Shown here in pieces: positions 7,411 to 49,803 of a stretch of 64,000 nucleotides of DNA. The DNA comes from Phycisphaerae bacterium (GTDB lineage: Bacteria > Planctomycetota > Phycisphaerae > UBA1845), in NCBI GenBank assembly GCA_029260165.1, contig JAJDDT010000072.1, positions 1 through 64,000 of the forward strand, in the 5' to 3' direction. The notes beneath the pieces were generated by a model. The model made no database searches, was not told where the DNA came from, and saw only the letters and a list, made by a program, of their open reading frames with translations. A program made the position numbers and the translations under genes. How positions within the stretch are numbered: the first letter of the stretch is position 1; each line of letters starts with the position of its first letter.

Positions 7411-8029
7411 CACACACTCTGCGAGCCGACCGTCTCGGGTTTGGGGGAATTCCAAAAACCACAGCGAACGGCACGGGTGATGTGGAATATCGCATATTCG
7501 ATACAGAACCACTATTTTCACGCCCCTGGTCCACATAAGGGCCAGCTTATCCTGTTCGGTTGCATCTTGACATTATCCGCGAAATCCGGGTACCGTACGG
7601 TGGAGTTCGCAGCGCTCCGGGTCACCTCCGGGGGCTTTGTTTCCGACGGCGGTTGTGCCGGTGGATGAGGGTTGGGTCGGTGTCGGCGGATTGCGGATTT
7701 GGGAAACGGGGCATCGGGGTCGGTCTGGAATTCCATTCCGACGAGGGTTGAAAGAAGCTCAATCCACTCGTTAGATGCGCGGGCTGTTCGTTCGGGTGAT
7801 GATTCGCCGAATGAGTCGTGTATGTTCGGGCCTGACAAGGGCCTGCCTGTCGTTGCCCGGTCGGTCCCGGGCAATCGCAAATTGGGGTTGAGTTTGTGCA
7901 TGATAAAACCGTCAGTGATGGCGCGAAAATATTAGAAATTACGACGTGGAAGTCGCACATTCGCCTTTCGTTCACCAGGACTCGCGAGCCTTTGGTTGTG
8001 ACGAAAACGAAATACAAGGGAGTAACGCA
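7411..8029. other. 619-base gap before the giant repeat protein
   Basis: Short frames on both strands here look non-coding: no ribosome-binding sites and no recognisable motif. The last ~130 bases are A/T-richer (around 7900-7940) and are the natural place for the promoter of the downstream gene, though no clear -35/-10 pair was found. Confidence 0.4.
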
Positions 8030-11000
8030 ATGAGGACCAGAAGCCTGTACGTCCTGCTCGGATTGATTGTTTCGGCAAGTTCAGCCCAGGAAGCGTTGGC
8101 TGGGGGCGGTGCTTGCTGCTTTGGCGCGAACCTGTGCTCCGTCGAACCCCAGGCAACCTGTCTGGCTCGACCGGGCACCTATGTGCTCGGTGCCACCTGC
8201 GCAGACCCCGATGTCGACGGCGTGCCTGACGCCTGCGACATTTGTCCCGGATTCAACGACGCACTCGATGCTGACCTGGATGGTGTTCCGGACGGTTGCG
8301 ATGCCTGTCCTGGATTCGATGACGCACTTGATGCAGACGCCGACACGGTTCCCGACGGATGCGACATCTGCGCCGGGTTCAACGATTTGGCGGACGCTGA
8401 TGCGGATGGTGTTCCCGACGGGTGCGATATTTGTGCCGGAGGTCCTGACAATGTTGATACCGACCTGGACGGCGTGCCCGATTTCTGTGATGCGTGTCCC
8501 GGGTTTGACGACGCGCTAGACGCCGACCTTGATGGCGTGGCTGACGGGTGCGATGCCTGTCCCGGGTTTGACGACGCACTTGATGCAGACGCCGACACGG
8601 TTCCCGACGGATGCGACATCTGCGCCGGGTTCAACGATTTGGCTGACGCTGACGCGGATGGTGTTCCCGACGGGTGCGACATCTGTGCCGGTGGTCCCGA
8701 CAACGTCGATACCGACCTCGATGGCGTGCCCGATTTCTGCGATGCGTGTCCTGGGTTTGATGACGCGATCGATACCGACCTCGATGGCGTGGCGGACGGC
8801 TGCGACGCCTGTCCGGGGTTTGATGACGCGATCGATACTGATCTTGATGGCGTAGCTGATGGTTGCGATGCCTGTCCGGGATTCGATGATGCACTCGATG
8901 CAGACGCCGACACGGTTCCCGATGGGTGCGACATCTGCGCCGGGTTCAACGATTTGGCTGACGCCGATGCGGATGGTGTTCCCGATGGTTGCGATATTTG
9001 CGCCGGCGGTCCTGACGGCGTCGATACCGACCTGGATGGCGTTCCCGATTTCTGTGACGCCTGTCCCGGATTTGACGACGCGATCGATACCGACCTCGAT
9101 GGCGTGGCGGACGGCTGCGACGCCTGTCCCGGGTTCGATGACGCACTTGATGCAGACGCCGACACGGTTCCCGACGGATGCGACATCTGCGCCGGGTTCA
9201 ACGATTTGGCTGACGCTGATGCGGACGGTGTTCCCGACGGTTGCGATATTTGCGCCGGAGGTCCTGACAATGTTGATACCGACCTGGACGGCGTGCCCGA
9301 TTTCTGTGACGCCTGCCCCGGGTTTGATGACGCGCTGGATGCTGACGCGGACACGGTTCCCGACGGATGCGACATCTGCGCTGGATTCGATGACCTGGCT
9401 GACGCCGATACGGATGGCGTGCCGGACGGGTGCGACATTTGTGCCGGTGGTCCTGACAACGTCGATACCGACCTGGATGGCGTTCCCGATTTCTGCGATG
9501 CGTGTCCGGGGTTTGACGACGCGATCGATACCGACCTCGATGGCGTAGCTGATGGTTGCGACGCCTGTCCCGGGTTTGACGACGCTCTGGATGCTGACCT
9601 GGACACGATTCCCGACGGATGCGACATCTGCGCAGGATTCGATGACCTGGCTGACGCCGATACGGATGGCGTGCCGGACGGTTGCGATATTTGCGCTGGT
9701 GGTCCTGACGGCGTCGATACCGACCTGGACGGCGTTCCCGATTTCTGCGATGCCTGTCCCGGGTTTGACGACGCTCTGGATGCAGACGCGGACACGATTC
9801 CCGACGGATGCGACATCTGCGCCGGGTTCAACGATTTGGCAGACGCTGATGCGGACGGTGTTCCCGACGGGTGCGACATCTGTGCCGGTGGTCCTGACGG
9901 CGTCGATACCGACCTCGATGGTGTGCCCGATTTCTGCGACGCCTGTCCGGGGTTCGATGACGCAATCGATACTGATCTTGATGGCGTAGCGGACGGTTGC
10001 GATGCCTGTCCTGGATTCGACGACACTGTCGATACCGACCTTGATGGTGTAGCGGACGGCTGCGATTCCTGTCCTGGATTCGACGACACTGTCGATACCG
10101 ACCTTGATGGTGTAGCGGACGGCTGCGATGCCTGTCCTGGATTCGACGACACTGTCGATACTGACCTCGATGGCGTGGCGGACGGCTGCGATGCCTGTCC
10201 GGGGTTCGATGACGCTGTCGATACCGACCTCGATGGTGTGGCAGACGGTTGCGACGCCTGTCCCGGGTTCGATGACGCACTCGATGCCGACCTCGATGGC
10301 GTGGCAGATGGTTGCGACGCCTGTCCTGGTTTTGATGACACACTTGATGCTGACGCCGACACGGTTCCCGACGGATGCGACATCTGCGCCGGGTTCGATG
10401 ACTTAATCGACACGGACACCGACGGTGTTCCCGACGGGTGCGATATTTGTGCCGGTGGTCCTGACAACGTCGATACCGACCTGGATGGCGTGCCCGATTT
10501 CTGCGATGCGTGTCCGGGGTTTGATGACGCGATCGATACCGACCTCGATGGCGTGGCGGACGGCTGCGATGCCTGTCCCGGGTTCGATGACGCTGTCGAT
10601 ACTGATCTTGATGGCGTAGCTGACGGCTGCGACGCCTGCCCGGGGTTCGATGACGCTGTCGATACTGACCTCGATGGTGTGGCAGATGGTTGCGACGCCT
10701 GTCCCGGGTTTGATGATGCTATTGATACCGACCTCGATGGCGTGGCGGACGGTTGCGATGCCTGTCCTGGATTCGACGACACTGTCGATACCGACCTTGA
10801 TGGTGTAGCGGACGGCTGCGATGCCTGTCCTGGGTTTGATGACGCGATCGATACTGACCTCGATGGCGTGGCTGATGGGTGCGACGCCTGTCCGGGATTT
10901 GACGACGCACTCGATGCAGACGCCGACACGGTTCCCGACGGATGCGATATCTGCGCCGGATTCGATGACTTAATCGACACGGACACCGACGGAGTGCCTG

Positions 11001-14000
11001 ACGGTTGCGATTCCTGTCCGAATGGTGACGCCGCACTTGATGCCGACGCGGACGGTGTTTGCGATGCGAACGATGCGTGTCCGGGATTTGACGACGCGCT
11101 CGATGCAGACGCGGACACGGTTCCCGACGGATGCGATATCTGCGCCGGATTCGATGACTTAATCGACACGGACACCGACGGTGTGCCTGACGGTTGCGAT
11201 ACCTGTCCGAATGGCGACGCCGCACTCGATGCCGACGCGGACGGTGTTTGCGATGCGAACGATGCGTGTCCGGGATTTGATGATGCGCTCGATGCAGACG
11301 CGGACACGGTTCCCGACGGATGCGACGTCTGCGCCGGATTCGATGACTTAATCGACGCTGACACGGACGGTGTTCCGGACGGATGTGACATTTGCGCCGG
11401 CGGCGATGACAACGTCGACGCCGACCTGGATGGCGTGCCCGATTTCTGCGATGCGTGCCCCGGGTTTGATGACGCGATCGACACCGATAGCGACACCGTG
11501 CCCGATGGTTGCGACGTTTGCCCCGTGTTCAATGACACGTTCGACGCGGACAGCGACGGGGTGCCGAACGGATGCGACAATTGTCCGGTGGATCCGAATC
11601 CCGGCCAGGAGAACAACGACGGAGATTTCTTCGGCGACGTTTGCGATCGATGTCTTGGTTTTGATGATCTGGTCGATACCGACTTCGACGGCGTACCAGA
11701 TGGATGCGACCTGTGTCCGTTTTTCAATGACGGCCTGGACGCCGACGGCGATACGATCCCCGACGGTTGCGACATCTGTGCGGCGGGCGACGACACGATC
11801 GACACCGACCTGGACGGCACGCCTGACGCGTGCGATGGGTGTCCGCTCGGCGACGACACGATCGACACCGACAGCGATACGATCGCCGACGCGTGCGACA
11901 ACTGTCCGAACGATTCAAACATAGGCCAGGCCGATACCGATCTGGACACGGTTGGCGACGCATGCGACCAGTGTGAAGGCTTCGACGACGCGTTGGACGC
12001 GGACACAGATGGGGTTCCGGATGGGTGCGATCTCTGCCCGGGAGTGACGGATGGTGGCGATCCTGACCTGGATGGTATCCCGTCGGGCTGCGATAACTGT
12101 CCGAACGATTCAAACGTCGGTCAGACTGATACCGATATGGATGGTCCGGGTGACGCGTGTGACCTTTGTCCGGGCTTTGATGATTCGATCGACGCCGACG
12201 GCGACACGATTCCCGATCCCTGTGATGTGTGCCCGGGCTTTGACGATCTGATCGACACGGACCTGGACGGCACACCCGACGCCTGCGACGCCTGTCCGAC
12301 GGGTGACGACACGATCGACACCGATATGGACACGCTTCCGGACGGTTGCGACAACTGCCCGACCATTTCCAATCCTGCTCAGGCAGATGCGGACAATGAC
12401 ACCGTCGGCGATCTTTGCGACGTATGCCCCGGTTTCGACGACACGCTCGACGCGGACAGTGACACGGTGCCCGATGGTTGCGACATTTGCCCGTTGTTTT
12501 CCGATCTGCTCGATGCGGACAGCGACGGTGTGCCGAACGGTTGTGATAATTGCCCGAGCGTTTCCAACCCGCTGCAGGCAGACCTTGACGGTGATTTCTT
12601 CGGCGATGCCTGCGACATTTGTCCGGGCTTCGATGATCTGCTCGACGCTGACGCCGATTCTGTCCCGGATGGTTGCGACATCTGCGCTGGGTTCGACGAT
12701 GCTGTCGACACCGACGGCGACAGCGTGCCCGACGGATGCGACATCTGTCCGGGGTTCGACGATGCGCTCGACGTGGATGGCGACACGGTTCCCGACGGGT
12801 GCGACACCTGTCCGAGCGGGGACGACACGCTTGATGCTGACGGCGATGGTGTTTGTGACGCCGACGATGCGTGTCCGGGATTCGATGACACCCTCGACAC
12901 GGACACCGACGGCGTGCCCGATGGGTGCGACGGCTGTCCGAATGACCCGTTCAGCATCCTGGGCCCCTGCCAGGATGTGCTGGTCCGGTGTGTCACACGC
13001 AACGCGTCCAGTGGCATCGCACAGACAACCGGTATTGATCTGCCTGCGTCCGAGCCTGACGTGTTTGAGGATGGTTGTTTCGTCGTCGAGGTTTGGGCGA
13101 TGGACATCAGTGCGGCTGCGAACGGTTTGAGCTGCGTTTTTGTCGACGTCAATTACAGCGAAGCCACCTGTCCGATTTCGGCAGACACAATTGACCACAA
13201 CGGCATGTTCGACACATTTGCCAGCGGAATCATCACCAATGATCCGCCGGACTTCGCCAATCTGGACGAACTTGGCGGTTGCTCGCTCAATCCGGGTGTC
13301 GGCGTCGGCCATTGGGCGCTGGTCGCCACGGTCAACATGCTCGCGCCGGACAGCAGCCCCTGTTTGACAACGACGTCGCTGGCTGACGCGACCACCGATA
13401 CCGCCCTCTTCAATGCCGGCGTGACCAATGCTCTGGATTTGACTGATACCTGTGACGTGAACATCCTGCCGCCGGGGACGATTTACAACCTCGACCGCAG
13501 TGTTTCGATGGACACGTTTGTCGGTCCGGGCGACTTCTCATTCTTCGCGCCGTGCTGGTTGGCTACCTCGCCGCTTGATGCGTGTACCACTTCCGATTTT
13601 GACTGCGACGGCGTGGTCGGTCCGGGCGATCTTTCCTTCCTTGCGACGGCGTGGTTGAGAAACGTGGCGGACTCGCTGATCGTGGTGCCGGCATGCCAGT
13701 TGGATTGTGCGGGACCGGGGGCGGCGTCCGGCGGACCGGAGCTGCCCTGGGCAGACTCGGAGTTGATTCAGAGCTTTGGTCTTGAGATTCCATCACGAGG
13801 CTGGGAGGGCTGGAAGGCGCATCCGGACTATCCGTTCCATGAGACCATCCAGCCACCGTCACGCTGGAACATTCCGCCCGTCGATACGCCGGCGGATGTT
13901 GAGAAGCCTGTCCGCCGATCCGATAAGGAGGGTACACCGTCTCCGCGTGGTCAGCAGGAGACCCGCCGGGAGAGTGGTGCGTTCGATGGGCGACGAGGCT

Positions 14001-14005
14001 TCTAG
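8030..14005 (+). CDS. giant secreted thrombospondin-type-3 repeat protein with cohesin-like and dockerin-like C-terminus
   Basis: A 1991-residue exported protein. A signal peptide (MRTRSLYVLLGLIVSASSAQ, then EALA) is followed by a short Cys-rich part. About 75 tandem units of ~21 residues follow (roughly residues 60-1640), of the form DACPGFDDALDADLDGVADGC. Each unit has the D-x-D-x-DG-x-x-D calcium loop and two cysteines of thrombospondin type 3 repeats. A ~180-residue beta-rich segment comes next and looks cohesin-like. Then a dockerin-like pair follows around residues 1827-1880 (TFVGPGDFSFFAPCW, DGVVGPGDLSFLATAW). Start ATG 8030 has AAGGGAGT upstream. Likely a calcium-stiffened surface or matrix rod; partners unknown. 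Many units are nearly identical at DNA level, so copy number may vary and the assembly may be collapsed. Confidence 0.85.
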   Translation: MRTRSLYVLLGLIVSASSAQEALAGGGACCFGANLCSVEPQATCLARPGTYVLGATCADPDVDGVPDACDICPGFNDALDADLDGVPDGCDACPGFDDALDADADTVPDGCDICAGFNDLADADADGVPDGCDICAGGPDNVDTDLDGVPDFCDACPGFDDALDADLDGVADGCDACPGFDDALDADADTVPDGCDICAGFNDLADADADGVPDGCDICAGGPDNVDTDLDGVPDFCDACPGFDDAIDTDLDGVADGCDACPGFDDAIDTDLDGVADGCDACPGFDDALDADADTVPDGCDICAGFNDLADADADGVPDGCDICAGGPDGVDTDLDGVPDFCDACPGFDDAIDTDLDGVADGCDACPGFDDALDADADTVPDGCDICAGFNDLADADADGVPDGCDICAGGPDNVDTDLDGVPDFCDACPGFDDALDADADTVPDGCDICAGFDDLADADTDGVPDGCDICAGGPDNVDTDLDGVPDFCDACPGFDDAIDTDLDGVADGCDACPGFDDALDADLDTIPDGCDICAGFDDLADADTDGVPDGCDICAGGPDGVDTDLDGVPDFCDACPGFDDALDADADTIPDGCDICAGFNDLADADADGVPDGCDICAGGPDGVDTDLDGVPDFCDACPGFDDAIDTDLDGVADGCDACPGFDDTVDTDLDGVADGCDSCPGFDDTVDTDLDGVADGCDACPGFDDTVDTDLDGVADGCDACPGFDDAVDTDLDGVADGCDACPGFDDALDADLDGVADGCDACPGFDDTLDADADTVPDGCDICAGFDDLIDTDTDGVPDGCDICAGGPDNVDTDLDGVPDFCDACPGFDDAIDTDLDGVADGCDACPGFDDAVDTDLDGVADGCDACPGFDDAVDTDLDGVADGCDACPGFDDAIDTDLDGVADGCDACPGFDDTVDTDLDGVADGCDACPGFDDAIDTDLDGVADGCDACPGFDDALDADADTVPDGCDICAGFDDLIDTDTDGVPDGCDSCPNGDAALDADADGVCDANDACPGFDDALDADADTVPDGCDICAGFDDLIDTDTDGVPDGCDTCPNGDAALDADADGVCDANDACPGFDDALDADADTVPDGCDVCAGFDDLIDADTDGVPDGCDICAGGDDNVDADLDGVPDFCDACPGFDDAIDTDSDTVPDGCDVCPVFNDTFDADSDGVPNGCDNCPVDPNPGQENNDGDFFGDVCDRCLGFDDLVDTDFDGVPDGCDLCPFFNDGLDADGDTIPDGCDICAAGDDTIDTDLDGTPDACDGCPLGDDTIDTDSDTIADACDNCPNDSNIGQADTDLDTVGDACDQCEGFDDALDADTDGVPDGCDLCPGVTDGGDPDLDGIPSGCDNCPNDSNVGQTDTDMDGPGDACDLCPGFDDSIDADGDTIPDPCDVCPGFDDLIDTDLDGTPDACDACPTGDDTIDTDMDTLPDGCDNCPTISNPAQADADNDTVGDLCDVCPGFDDTLDADSDTVPDGCDICPLFSDLLDADSDGVPNGCDNCPSVSNPLQADLDGDFFGDACDICPGFDDLLDADADSVPDGCDICAGFDDAVDTDGDSVPDGCDICPGFDDALDVDGDTVPDGCDTCPSGDDTLDADGDGVCDADDACPGFDDTLDTDTDGVPDGCDGCPNDPFSILGPCQDVLVRCVTRNASSGIAQTTGIDLPASEPDVFEDGCFVVEVWAMDISAAANGLSCVFVDVNYSEATCPISADTIDHNGMFDTFASGIITNDPPDFANLDELGGCSLNPGVGVGHWALVATVNMLAPDSSPCLTTTSLADATTDTALFNAGVTNALDLTDTCDVNILPPGTIYNLDRSVSMDTFVGPGDFSFFAPCWLATSPLDACTTSDFDCDGVVGPGDLSFLATAWLRNVADSLIVVPACQLDCAGPGAASGGPELPWADSELIQSFGLEIPSRGWEGWKAHPDYPFHETIQPPSRWNIPPVDTPADVEKPVRRSDKEGTPSPRGQQETRRESGAFDGRRGF
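8210..12960 (+). repeat. tandem coding repeats of 63 bases
   Basis: About 75 in-frame units of ~63 bases encode the TSP3-like repeats. Higher-order blocks of three units (…TVPDGCDICAGFNDLAD…, …GVPDGCDICAGGPDNVD…, …GVPDFCDACPGFDDA…) recur with near-identical DNA between about 8270 and 10000. A simpler VADGCDACPGFDD unit dominates between 9980 and 10900. Units become more divergent after about 11500. This pattern suggests recent expansion of the N-terminal and middle part by unequal recombination. Confidence 0.9.
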
Positions 14006-40381: not shown

Positions 40382-41542
40382 CTACGCGCAGATGGTCCCG
40401 ATTTGCAATCCGGAGACGATGGCGTGGGCGAGAACCTCGCTGTTGCAGGGAGAAATATCGTCGGGAACGCGTTGTCCGTTGGTGGTGAATGACAGTCTCG
40501 CGTGGGCGGTTTTGAGGCTGTTGAGGATGACACCGAACCCGATGGCTTCGTCGAGTTTGGTGAAAATGATGCGATTGAACCCGAGCTGCTCAAAGCGCCG
40601 GGTGTGCTGCTCGATGACTCCCTGATTGGACTCAGCCGAGAGGACCAGATGGGTTTCGCCGGGTTTGGCTGCCTCAAGCAGGGATTTGAGGTCCTCGATT
40701 CGGTCTGCGTCGGCAGGTGAGCAGCCTGGGGTATCGATAAACACGATGTCGCAGTGGCGTGTCTGGTCGAGCGCGGTTTGCATTTGGTCGGTGGTTGATA
40801 CGACGTGGAGATTGACGTGGATGATGTCGGCGTACGTCTGGAGTTGGTCGGCTGCTCCGACGCGAAGCGTGTCGGTGGTGATGAGTCCGACGGTTTTGTG
40901 GTGGCGTAGAGAATGGTTGGCGGTGAGCTTGGCGATGGTGGTGGTTTTGCCGACACCGGTCGCGCCGACGAGGGCGATGATGTGGGGTGTTTTGGATCGC
41001 GTGAGGCGAGGCGTTTCCGCGACGGGAAGCATCGTTGAGATGAATTCGGTGAGTTTCGCCCTGACGGACTCGGGATTGGTCAGTTGGGCGGGGGTCAGTT
41101 CGCGTTGGATTTTTCGCGTGAGTTTGGCTGCGATGTCGGTGGAAACCTGCGACTCAACCAGATGCTGAAAGGTCTTCTTGAGGTGGGAGGGCACGCTGGG
41201 ATCATCGGCGGACCAGCGGTCGTGGAGAAGTTGATCGACGGAAGATTGCAGTGTGATGAGGCGGTCGGTTAGTTTTGAATCGGTCGTCGGTGTGCGGCGT
41301 GCGGCCACCGGAGCGCGTGTTTGGGGTTTTTCGGATTGACGGATTCGGGATGATTTTGTTTCGGGGGTTGGCGGTTCCCCCTGGCTGGCGGTGATTTCGA
41401 CACGTTGTTTCGCTCCTCCGGGAAGCCTTCGTTTGGTGTCGCAGGTTCGGGTGTGGAGGATGACGGCGTTGGGGCCGAAGTGTTTTTTGACCATCGCGAT
41501 GGCTTCGCCCATGGAATCTGCCTGGAAAGTCTTAACGTTCAT
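40382..41542 (-). CDS. flhF: flagellar SRP-like GTPase FlhF
   Basis: Sets the place and number of flagella at the pole in many bacteria, helping FliF assemble. 386 residues: an N-terminal B domain (MNVKTFQADSMGEAIAMVKK, FGPNAVIL), a helical N domain, and an SRP-type G domain. The G domain holds G1 GATGVGKTTTIAKL, LITTDTLRVGAADQLQTYA, FIDTPGCSPAD and FTKLDEA. The start overlaps the flhA end by 11 bases. Its normal partner FlhG is not next to it. Confidence 0.95.
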   Translation of the reverse strand: MNVKTFQADSMGEAIAMVKKHFGPNAVILHTRTCDTKRRLPGGAKQRVEITASQGEPPTPETKSSRIRQSEKPQTRAPVAARRTPTTDSKLTDRLITLQSSVDQLLHDRWSADDPSVPSHLKKTFQHLVESQVSTDIAAKLTRKIQRELTPAQLTNPESVRAKLTEFISTMLPVAETPRLTRSKTPHIIALVGATGVGKTTTIAKLTANHSLRHHKTVGLITTDTLRVGAADQLQTYADIIHVNLHVVSTTDQMQTALDQTRHCDIVFIDTPGCSPADADRIEDLKSLLEAAKPGETHLVLSAESNQGVIEQHTRRFEQLGFNRIIFTKLDEAIGFGVILNSLKTAHARLSFTTNGQRVPDDISPCNSEVLAHAIVSGLQIGTICA

Positions 41543-46735: not shown

Positions 46736-47608
46736 TCAGCTTCTTTCCTGCTCCCTGATCGACGACGTCTGCGTTGCGTCCCTGCGTAGCGAACGGAGTC
46801 GATCGAGAAGTCCGGTGATCTCTTTGCGTACCTGATGTTCTCCCGATGCGGGCATTGTTTCGGATGACGCGTCGGGTTCCATCGCGTCCGCGAGCTTGTG
46901 GCCTTCATCGCGGACGACGGTTTCAAACGGCGTTATGTTTTTCCTGACCCCGCCTATGCGGAGTCTGGTTTTGACGGTGGCTGCCTCCTCGCGGTCCTCG
47001 ATGACACGAATGGGCGTGATGGCCTGTGGGGTGACACCGACGAAGACGAGTTTCCCACCCATCTGGACCAACGCGACGCTTTGCCGCTGCGAAAGGTGTG
47101 TCTGTGTGAGAACGCTGAGGACGTCTCCGCCGTTGATTTTGACGGTGCCTTTCCATTTTTTCAGGGTCAGACCGATGGCGCCGATGACGGCGAGGACGAT
47201 TCCGAGCGGCAGCAGTCCCGCCTGATACCACGCGGTTTTCCCGGCAACAGCCTCTGACCGGGGGTGGATTCGTTCGATCGGTGTTCGACTGGACGAACCA
47301 GGACGGGCAATTTCAATGGATGATACCGGCGTATCGAATTGCGTTGGTACGGTCGTTTCCGCGTTCGATGACTCCGAATCTGCCGTTGGTGGTGTCGGTT
47401 CGGTTTCGATGTCGATGGTGACGGCTGCGTTGGCGAGTGTGGTGGGCGGCGTCTCCGTCGGATGTGCGACCATCCACGCGCGGTGCGTTTCGATCAGGTT
47501 TCCGAGCAGCGTGATGTTTTGCGCGTTGGCGGAGCCTGATACGATCAGGACGACGAACGAGCACACGATGAGTTTTCTGATTTTTTGTTTTTCAGGCGGC
47601 GGATACAT
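46736..47608 (-). CDS. fliO: flagellar assembly protein FliO
   Basis: Small membrane chaperone for FliP-ring formation. 290 residues, larger than usual: a signal peptide (MYPPPEKQKIRKLIVCSFVV) is followed by a Thr/Pro-rich periplasmic stretch. One membrane helix (AGLLPLGIVLAVIGAIGLTL) and a cytoplasmic domain with VLSVLTQTHLSQRQSVALVQ and GGKLVFVGVTPQAITPI complete it; the last two are the FliO signature. A long charged tail follows. ATG 47608 overlaps fliN by 17 bases and has AAGGA seven bases upstream. The longer frame upstream of it is a shadow of fliN. Confidence 0.85.
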   Translation of the reverse strand: MYPPPEKQKIRKLIVCSFVVLIVSGSANAQNITLLGNLIETHRAWMVAHPTETPPTTLANAAVTIDIETEPTPPTADSESSNAETTVPTQFDTPVSSIEIARPGSSSRTPIERIHPRSEAVAGKTAWYQAGLLPLGIVLAVIGAIGLTLKKWKGTVKINGGDVLSVLTQTHLSQRQSVALVQMGGKLVFVGVTPQAITPIRVIEDREEAATVKTRLRIGGVRKNITPFETVVRDEGHKLADAMEPDASSETMPASGEHQVRKEITGLLDRLRSLRRDATQTSSIREQERS

Positions 47609-48476
47609 CCTGCAATCCTTGCACGATTTCGCTGATGCGGACACAGAAGTTATCGCTGAGGACAAGCACTTCTCCGCGTGCGATGAGTCTTCCATTGACA
47701 TAGATATCCACCGGATCACCGGCGAGATTTTGCAATTCGACGACGCTGCCTTCACCAAGCCTGAGCACGTCCTCGATGTACATTTTGGTTCGACCCAACT
47801 CGACGTGTACGCGAAGCGAGACGTCGTGCAGGATGGAGATGTCCTGGTCCGCGTTGGCTGCGGTTTCCGCGGAAAAATCGGCCACTTCCATCGGCTCGGG
47901 TTGGGGTCCCGTTGCGACGGAAGGTGGTGGTGCGGGAGCCTCGTCCTCGATTGCGGCGGCCATGGCTGCTGCGATGTCGTCGAACGGTCTTCCGGCGGAG
48001 TCGACGCGATCGTCGGCCGGCGAGGCGTCGGGAGTCGTGGTCGCGGTATCGAGTTCGGCGAGTGCGGCGTCGATGTCGGCCTGACTGACCGCGTTGCCTG
48101 AATCGGCACCCGCGTCTGCGGTCTCCACCGCGCTCTGTAACAGGGCGGCGTCGATGTCGGCCTGTGACAACGCGCCGGTGTCGGATGGTGTGTCGGCCGG
48201 GGGTGCGGATTCGGGTTCGGATCCCGCCGCTGCTGCGTTCATCGCGGCATCGATGTCCGCTGGTGAAAGATCACCTGAGTCTTCGGCGGTTTCCCCCTGT
48301 GTGGATTGGGCAATTGCTTCGTTTGCCGCGTTGAGCGCCGCGTCGATGTCGGCCTGGCTCAGACCGCCGCCGGTATCGTCAGCATCGTCGACAGAAGCGG
48401 GTGGCGGATCCTGTTGGGGATCGCCCTGCTCATCTTCGACATTATCGGACTGGTTTTCGATTGGTTCGTCTGGCAT
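47592..48476 (-). CDS. fliN: flagellar motor switch protein FliN, with repeated CheY-binding-like motifs
   Basis: C-ring subunit. 294 residues instead of the usual 80-140. The C-terminal SpoA domain (about 213-290; ISILHDVSLRVHVELGRTKM, LRLGEGSVVEL, VYVNGRLIARGEVLV-like) is normal. The ~200-residue acidic, Ala-rich N-terminus holds four copies of a LSQADIDAAL-type motif at 39-48, 70-79, 103-112 and 130-139, plus a degenerate one at 165-172. In FliM and in FliY the N-terminal LSQ-EIDALL peptide binds CheY-P, so this protein may do so many times. ATG 48476 is the only ATG; an upstream in-frame TTG at 48530 is less likely. It directly follows fliL; fliM, normally between them, is absent. Confidence 0.9.
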   Translation of the reverse strand: MPDEPIENQSDNVEDEQGDPQQDPPPASVDDADDTGGGLSQADIDAALNAANEAIAQSTQGETAEDSGDLSPADIDAAMNAAAAGSEPESAPPADTPSDTGALSQADIDAALLQSAVETADAGADSGNAVSQADIDAALAELDTATTTPDASPADDRVDSAGRPFDDIAAAMAAAIEDEAPAPPPSVATGPQPEPMEVADFSAETAANADQDISILHDVSLRVHVELGRTKMYIEDVLRLGEGSVVELQNLAGDPVDIYVNGRLIARGEVLVLSDNFCVRISEIVQGLQDVSAA

Positions 48477-48530
48477 TGGTCCGCACGTTACCTCGCCTGC
48501 ATATCGACGCGATGGATGCTCAAATTCCAA

Positions 48531-49052
48531 TCAAAGGTGCGATCGTGACCGAATCATGTTGGAAATGAGAATATCCTCGATCAATTCCTTGCCCAGGAGG
48601 TTGTTCAACTCGAATTTCAACTGGCGCTTCATGACCTGCAGCGTCGGATCACCGAGGTCCTGCGGATCGGCGGATCGAATCACGGTCTGAACGCGATCGA
48701 GGATCGATTTTTCGCGTGCTTCCACGAATCGCTCGACCATCTCAAGGTTTTCGCAGTTGACGATGGCGGACAATTCGATGTGGTAAGTGTGTACCCGCCC
48801 TTCCTTACCATTGGTGGCCTGGGCCTGGCAGATGAAAATCTCGGATTCCACCTTGAAGGGATCGACCTCCTCGGGGGTATCGTCCGCCATGGCGGTTTCG
48901 GGTGGTGGATTGACGATCCCCAGGAGGACGTAGATTCCAACCCCTTCGCCGAGCATGAGGGCTGCGACGATGATGAGCGGTTTGAACCTGCCCTTCTTTG
49001 GGGCGGTTTCCTGTTGTTGCTCTTCGGTCTCTTCGGGTTTCCTAGCTGCCAT
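48531..49052 (-). CDS. fliL: flagellar basal-body-associated protein FliL
   Basis: Ring-forming protein around the stator that aids torque. 173 residues: charged cytoplasmic start, one helix (FKPLIIVAALMLGEGVGIYV), and a periplasmic stomatin-like domain ending in LKFELNNLLGKELIEDILIS. ATG 49052 overlaps the motB end by 11 bases. An in-frame ATG at 49094 would lengthen it by 14 residues and overlap more. Confidence 0.88.
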   Translation of the reverse strand: MAARKPEETEEQQQETAPKKGRFKPLIIVAALMLGEGVGIYVLLGIVNPPPETAMADDTPEEVDPFKVESEIFICQAQATNGKEGRVHTYHIELSAIVNCENLEMVERFVEAREKSILDRVQTVIRSADPQDLGDPTLQVMKRQLKFELNNLLGKELIEDILISNMIRSRSHL

Positions 49053-49803
49053 CTTCCGACTCTCTGACCTCTTGCGATTGCGGTTCGCCTGCATAGTCCT
49101 CGACGATGGCTTCGGTCACGATGACCTCAACGCGTCGATTCAGGGCGAGTCTCCGCTCTTCGTACGCCTGTGCGAGCAATGGCTCGCTTGCTCCGCAGCC
49201 AATGATCCGGATGCGTATGGAACGCACTCCGTTGGCTACAAGCTCATCGGCCACCGCCTGGGCGCGGGTCAGTGAGAGGTGCATTTGATCCTTGAATTCC
49301 GAGTCGGGTGGGAGGGGTTCGCGCGTGGTGTGCCCCCGAACGTGGAGCACGGTGTTTCTACCCACGATTTTTTCGGACAGGTTGCGGATAAGTTTTTGGG
49401 CTTCGGGTTTGAGTTTGGCCTTGAATCGCTCAAATGTTATCCGACCCCCGACGACGATGCTGATTCCTTCCCGGACGTTTGTGACTCTGAATACCCTGCC
49501 ATTGATGCCTTCGTCGTCGGAATCCCCTTCTTTTGTGGTGTATTGTGGAATGACGATTTTCTGGAGCTGCTGGATCAGGCTGTTTTGGGATGGTTGAATT
49601 TCGGGGATTTGTCCGGGGCTGTTGGAGTATCCGAATGCCTGCTGGATGGAATCGACGACGACCTGGAACTTGACGTCCTTCTTGACTTCGCTCATCGAGA
49701 CAATGATGACGAAAAAGCACAGGAGCAGGGACATCATGTCGCCGAATGTGACCATCCATTCGGGTGCGCCGGCGGCTTTTTCCTCTTTTTTCTTCTTAGC
49801 CAC
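49042..49803 (-). CDS. motB: flagellar stator protein MotB
   Basis: Stator subunit that anchors MotA to peptidoglycan. 253 residues: lysine-rich start, then PEWMVTFGDMMSLLLCFFVI with the proton-carrying Asp22. The OmpA-like domain follows (LHVRGHTTREPLPPDSEFKD, LSLTRAQAVADELVANGV, NRRVEVIVTE). GTG 49803 is the start. An Asp/Glu-rich insertion lies between helix and domain. Asp at the ion site fits proton use, though sodium cannot be excluded. Confidence 0.95.
   Translation of the reverse strand: MAKKKKEEKAAGAPEWMVTFGDMMSLLLCFFVIIVSMSEVKKDVKFQVVVDSIQQAFGYSNSPGQIPEIQPSQNSLIQQLQKIVIPQYTTKEGDSDDEGINGRVFRVTNVREGISIVVGGRITFERFKAKLKPEAQKLIRNLSEKIVGRNTVLHVRGHTTREPLPPDSEFKDQMHLSLTRAQAVADELVANGVRSIRIRIIGCGASEPLLAQAYEERRLALNRRVEVIVTEAIVEDYAGEPQSQEVRESEDGS

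Follow-up and report, generated by a model that had tools for sequence, protein, structure and literature searches.

Docking motifs of the EIDALL type are bound by CheY-P at the N-terminus of FliM and FliY (PMC9126983, PMC6946799). The CheY-P tethered in this way by FliM is thought to be handed on to secondary sites, on either the FliM middle domain or FliN (PMC7355467), and the ring holds about three FliN per FliM (PMC7505661). In other bacteria the same N-terminal segment binds FlhG, at the first 36 residues of FliY of the Bacillus type and at the FliM N-terminus in polar flagellates (PMC12327844, PMC12826062), and therefore two ligands have to be weighed for any new occurrence of the motif. 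The motif, its role in FliM and FliY, and FliN itself are already known. The FliN described here, which we call FliN1, shares with the FliM peptide the short motif, the predicted helix, the disordered tether and the attachment to the C ring, but it differs in that FliN bears the motifs, with as many as five strict copies on one chain, while the FliM peptide is intact besides, and in that the first L of the motif is A in this genus. FliY of Bacillus, Helicobacter and Campylobacter is likewise a FliN-type SPOA protein with an N-terminal motif of the CheY-binding type, but as described it has a CheC-like domain and one motif, whereas FliN1 lacks the CheC domain and bears several motifs. With the canonical FliN of Salmonella and Thermotoga it shares the C-terminal SPOA domain and the operon position; Salmonella FliN has 137 aa and no reported docking-motif array. 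We found no report in the open literature of multi-copy EIDALL motifs on a CheC-less FliN in cells that keep the FliM peptide. We consider it likely that the FliG/FliM/FliN switch is otherwise ordinary and that its FliN provides additional sites for the docking of CheY-P; FliN1 would be a normal C-ring FliN with a disordered tail of helix-forming motifs.

The window, a stretch of 64,000 nucleotides from a Phycisphaerae genome, holds on its minus strand the gene order fliL, fliN, fliO, fliP, fliQ, fliR, flhB, flhA, flhF and fliA (Table 1), so that fliN does directly follow fliL, as the initial annotation had stated. The name fliL is given by position, and its protein has no Pfam hit. The open frame of FliN1 (47592-48530) reaches upstream to a TTG at 48530, and the start is likely the ATG listed in Table 1, judging by the protein of a congener, which begins at the same place. 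The C-terminal part is a standard SPOA domain (PF01052, E=5.6e-23) whose best structure matches are the FliN proteins of Thermotoga and Salmonella. This is the only Pfam domain found, and FliN1 has the makeup of a FliN, with an SPOA domain, no FliM middle domain and a site in the flagellar operon near fliO and fliP. Its four EIDALL-type motif copies at the N-terminus would also suit a FliY. That assignment was rejected because the CheC-like domain is absent: Pfam gave no CheC hit in FliN1, and the CheC domains of this genome sit in separate proteins.

Table 1. Positions of FliN1, its neighbour fliL and the elements of FliN1 in the window
Feature	Position	Strand	Description
fliL (by position)	48531..49094	minus	187-aa membrane-anchored protein; motB on one side, fliN on the other
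FliN1 coding sequence	47592..48476	minus	294 aa from ATG at 48476
Motif copy 1, LSQADIDAAL	48333..48362	minus	residues 39-48; predicted helix 41-57
Motif copy 2, LSPADIDAAM	48240..48269	minus	residues 70-79; predicted helix 72-83
Motif copy 3, LSQADIDAAL	48141..48170	minus	residues 103-112; predicted helix 105-118
Motif copy 4, VSQADIDAAL	48060..48089	minus	residues 130-139; predicted helix 132-143
Conserved element GRPFDDIAAAMAAAIEDE	47940..47993	minus	between motif array and SPOA; nearly invariant in alignment; predicted helix 165-177
SPOA (FliMN_C) domain	47622..47831	minus	PF01052; structural matches to FliN; places FliN in the C ring

The four motifs that the initial annotation had noticed in the N-terminal tail are present. 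The strict pattern that we used for counting was xxQx[D/E][I/V/L][D/N]x[L/M/I/A/F]x; a narrower one, with L/M/I at the first L position, missed the copies of the window's own genus, and all counts given here use the widened pattern. Copy 2 has P where Q is otherwise near-invariant, and the tail of the window's FliN1 holds three strict motifs, against 0.018 expected from composition-preserving shuffles. Across 40 FliN1 proteins of the family the same kind of shuffles gave an expectation of 0.28 strict motifs, compared to the 81 observed. In every FliN1 copy of the window's genus the first L of EIDALL is replaced by A (DIDAAL), which may weaken CheY binding in this genus. The AlphaFold2 model of FliN1 is of low confidence overall (mean pLDDT 61.9) but puts separate helices on the four motifs, where 10-residue blocks reach about 70-85, with low-confidence linkers between them; a fifth helix falls on the conserved GRPFD-x-x-AAAM element. 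FliN1 thus shows the sequence pattern of an EIDALL-type docking motif and, by prediction, a short helix borne on a disordered tether as well.

A, D, E, P and S abound in the tail, and relatives differ widely in copy number, as could be expected if the motifs were nothing but functionless, low-complexity drift of an Ala/Asp/Glu-rich linker. We regard this as extremely improbable, given that the shuffles and the conservation tests already contradict it: across 20 aligned relatives the linkers differ in both length and content, whereas the Q, I and D of the motif (Q-x-D/E-I-D-A) are retained. The association with CheA described below also speaks against drift, as do the differences between the copies at the DNA level. 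The copies in the window's FliN1 differ pairwise at 3-5 synonymous codons, most of the changes being synonymous, and the 45 bases on each side of them are roughly as dissimilar as unrelated GC-rich DNA. It is therefore the peptide that is conserved and not the DNA, and a recent tandem DNA duplication was rejected as the origin of the copies on the same grounds.

The absence of fliM next to fliN, from which the initial annotation had gone on to suggest that FliN might stand in for a missing FliM, holds for the neighbourhood but not for the genome. The assembly has 119 contigs and is estimated to be 100% complete, and a search for fliM turned up a normal FliM on contig C67 (PF02154, E=1.2e-65; 335 aa), with the N-terminus MADVLEQSEVDSLLQAV and its own motif, LEQSEVDSLL. 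A FliM with the N-terminal motif was found in each of the 21 family genomes read, including that of the window, so the idea of a replacement was wrong. The resemblance of the FliN motifs to the CheY-binding peptide of FliM is genuine, and the FliM of the same genomes has the same motif at its N-terminus. The expectation that fliM should lie between fliL and fliN also fails in this group: at 80 named planctomycete FliN loci, with flanks of up to 3 kb, there was no FliM beside FliN. Most flagellated genomes in the class contain two or three genes for SPOA proteins, and on both counts a fliM distant from fliN is ordinary in the class. In a few members (G051, G082, G134) FliN does adjoin a FliM-sized SPOA match.

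The third SPOA protein of the window's genome is a second, short FliN (FliN2) of 139 aa on contig C6, MDILDQSEIDSLLSGG, with the motif LDQSEIDSLL. All three SPOA proteins thus bear the motif, with FliM and the short FliN having one apiece. A search of the genome's DNA for codings of Q-x-D/E-I-D-A/S/T gave 18 matches, 3 of them in FliN1, and established no other carrier, with one further locus read for frames. The short FliN gene (L004 1456-1875, minus strand) stands apart from other flagellar genes.

The motif array is a family-level trait, with 0-5 strict copies per FliN. With three proteins of the family omitted because they failed to fit the anchor on which the count was based, the window's family has FliN1 proteins with no strict copy (5 proteins), one (9), two (11), three (12), four (1) and five (2). 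Outside the family, 26 of the 27 FliNs sampled from the class are without the motif. The named relatives that bear arrays are metagenome-assembled Phycisphaerae and other Planctomycetota. On a weakly resolved tree of the SPOA domain, which has few columns and weak support, at least 17 changes are needed to account for the state of having two or more copies, so this state is labile. A scan of 392 genomes of the phylum for a tandem GACATCGACGC pair matched in 4: one match is this FliN, a second genome has a palindromic DNA element in repeated copies, and the other two genomes gave single matches. Being codon-strict, the pattern would overlook most of the known arrays, and the scan therefore says little about how widely arrays are spread. 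A repeat that includes GGAGCGGCGATGTCCACATCGCCG was found in the planctomycete genome G368 (L264, L267-L275), both as tandem copies and at several places.

The chemotaxis genes in the window's genome are two CheA, CheR, CheB, a two-domain CheC, CheD, CheX and CheY. The CheY (P0003) is of the Thermotoga type and matches the T. maritima CheY structure 4IGA with E=2.8e-39. The protein with two CheC domains (L136 9991-11181), which is likely a CheY-P phosphatase, has cheA and cheD on either side and adjoins cheY. To relate the array to chemotaxis, CheA was sought in 51 family genomes and then set against the FliN1 copy number. The mean was 2.76 motifs in 29 genomes with CheA, none of which had zero, and 0.85 in 13 genomes scored as lacking it, five of which had zero; absence here means that one Pfam model found no CheA in draft genomes, some of them 67-79% complete. 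The Mann-Whitney test, which ignores kinship, gave p=1.4e-5 for all genomes, p=0.0021 at a completeness of at least 90% and p=0.002 on genus means. Each of the five FliN1s with zero copies belongs to a genome without CheA, and the five come from two genera; in one genus (g3) the single member with CheA has 2 motifs while the three without it have 0. There are exceptions, as three genomes without CheA retain 2 FliN1 motifs. Only 4 supported independent pairs could be formed, with copy number concordant in 1-2 and almost never opposed, too few for significance. The motif of the short FliN follows the same direction, being present in 15 of 20 genomes with CheA and in 2 of 8 without (Fisher p=0.03).

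Because copy number is higher in the genomes that have CheA, CheY binding by FliN receives indirect support. The motif of FliM behaves differently, with exactly one in 16 of 16 genomes with CheA and in 5 of 5 without (L001 1372-2379; L095-L114). Its retention without CheA means that this class of motif can have another use, and the N-terminal peptide of FliM probably has a role besides CheY-P binding. Taking FliM and FliN together, with one always constant and the other richer where CheA is present, the pattern suggests that peptides of one class do two different jobs, perhaps assembly and signalling, and that these genomes allow the two to be told apart.

A use of that kind could in principle extend to the FliN1 repeats, which would then bind the MinD-like ATPase FlhG for C-ring assembly or the control of flagellar number, and the binding of FlhG to the same segment elsewhere (PMC12327844, PMC12826062) lends this some appeal. 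The presence of FlhG does not track the FliN1 motifs, however. In the window's genome there is no flhG after flhF (40382-41542), nor was one found elsewhere by ParA-family and DQAxxLR searches, although a divergent copy could be missed by these. The flagellar operons of the array-bearing genomes G071 and G148 have none either, whereas an FlhG-like gene is present in the operons of G045, G159, G065 and G008, whose FliN1 has no motif. FlhG as the ligand of the FliN1 array is on this account disfavoured, and we hold it to be quite unlikely. The association with CheA, together with this distribution of FlhG, favours a chemotaxis protein as the ligand, most simply CheY-P, and leaves assembly as a possible role for the FliM motif. 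The CheA-less genomes G045 and G159 (L276, L285) have no recognisable flhF in the stretch from flhA to fliA and keep the FlhG-like gene, the reverse of the window's genome.

The association with CheA would suit any partner linked to chemotaxis, and the genome has many stand-alone receivers as well as CheC and CheX. The motifs could thus dock a second receiver, a CheC/CheX phosphatase or a scaffold, and the array would then bring a phosphatase, or some other regulator, to the motor. This has a small share of our confidence, as the same genomes have a FliM peptide that the motif matches, and the known ligand of that peptide elsewhere is CheY-P (PMC9126983, PMC7355467).

With CheY-P as the ligand, FliM, which is encoded elsewhere, would supply the standard single docking peptide and the short FliN would add one more. 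In the chemotactic members of the family, each FliN would most likely gather several CheY-P on its motifs, keeping them near the secondary binding surfaces of the C ring, which lie on the FliM middle domain and on FliN. This could raise CheY-P locally and shift or buffer the switching set-point, without necessarily steepening it; the steeper response put forward in the initial annotation is not implied by the array. What we infer is that CheY-P binds physically, how many of the sites are usable, and any effect on motor output. The same evidence would also fit copies that bind CheY-P as decoys or as a buffer, competing with the FliM peptide and lowering the sensitivity of the motor, the more so as FliN tails may outnumber FliM peptides. 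We give such a role very little credence, given that the tails belong to the C ring and lie beside the secondary CheY site reported on FliN (PMC7355467), so that captured CheY-P would be near its place of action.

The extra docking sites on FliN could be numerous. With about three FliN per FliM and the 34 units per ring that appear in the titles of matched structures, we infer that a motor could have as many as a few hundred sites, depending on the shares of FliN1 and the short FliN. As a tentative proposal that we would put at somewhat less than even, the FliN ring might be densely set with CheY-P docking sites, up to a few hundred in all, and serve as a motor-borne reservoir that sets the sensitivity or duration of switching. 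It would act as a second input stage, separate from the FliM peptide, and evolution would have tuned it through copy number. The number and place of CheY-P sites per motor are central to how binding is turned into ultrasensitive switching, and these lineages, whose FliN has from 0 to 5 docking motifs against the same FliM background, offer a natural copy-number series for testing this.

Two minor observations concern the window itself. The GRPFD-AAAM-AAI helix (47940-47993) is mostly absent from relatives without CheA, being kept in 4 of 13 of these against 29 of 31 with CheA, and on the plus strand an open frame of 2019 aa extends over 7946-14005.
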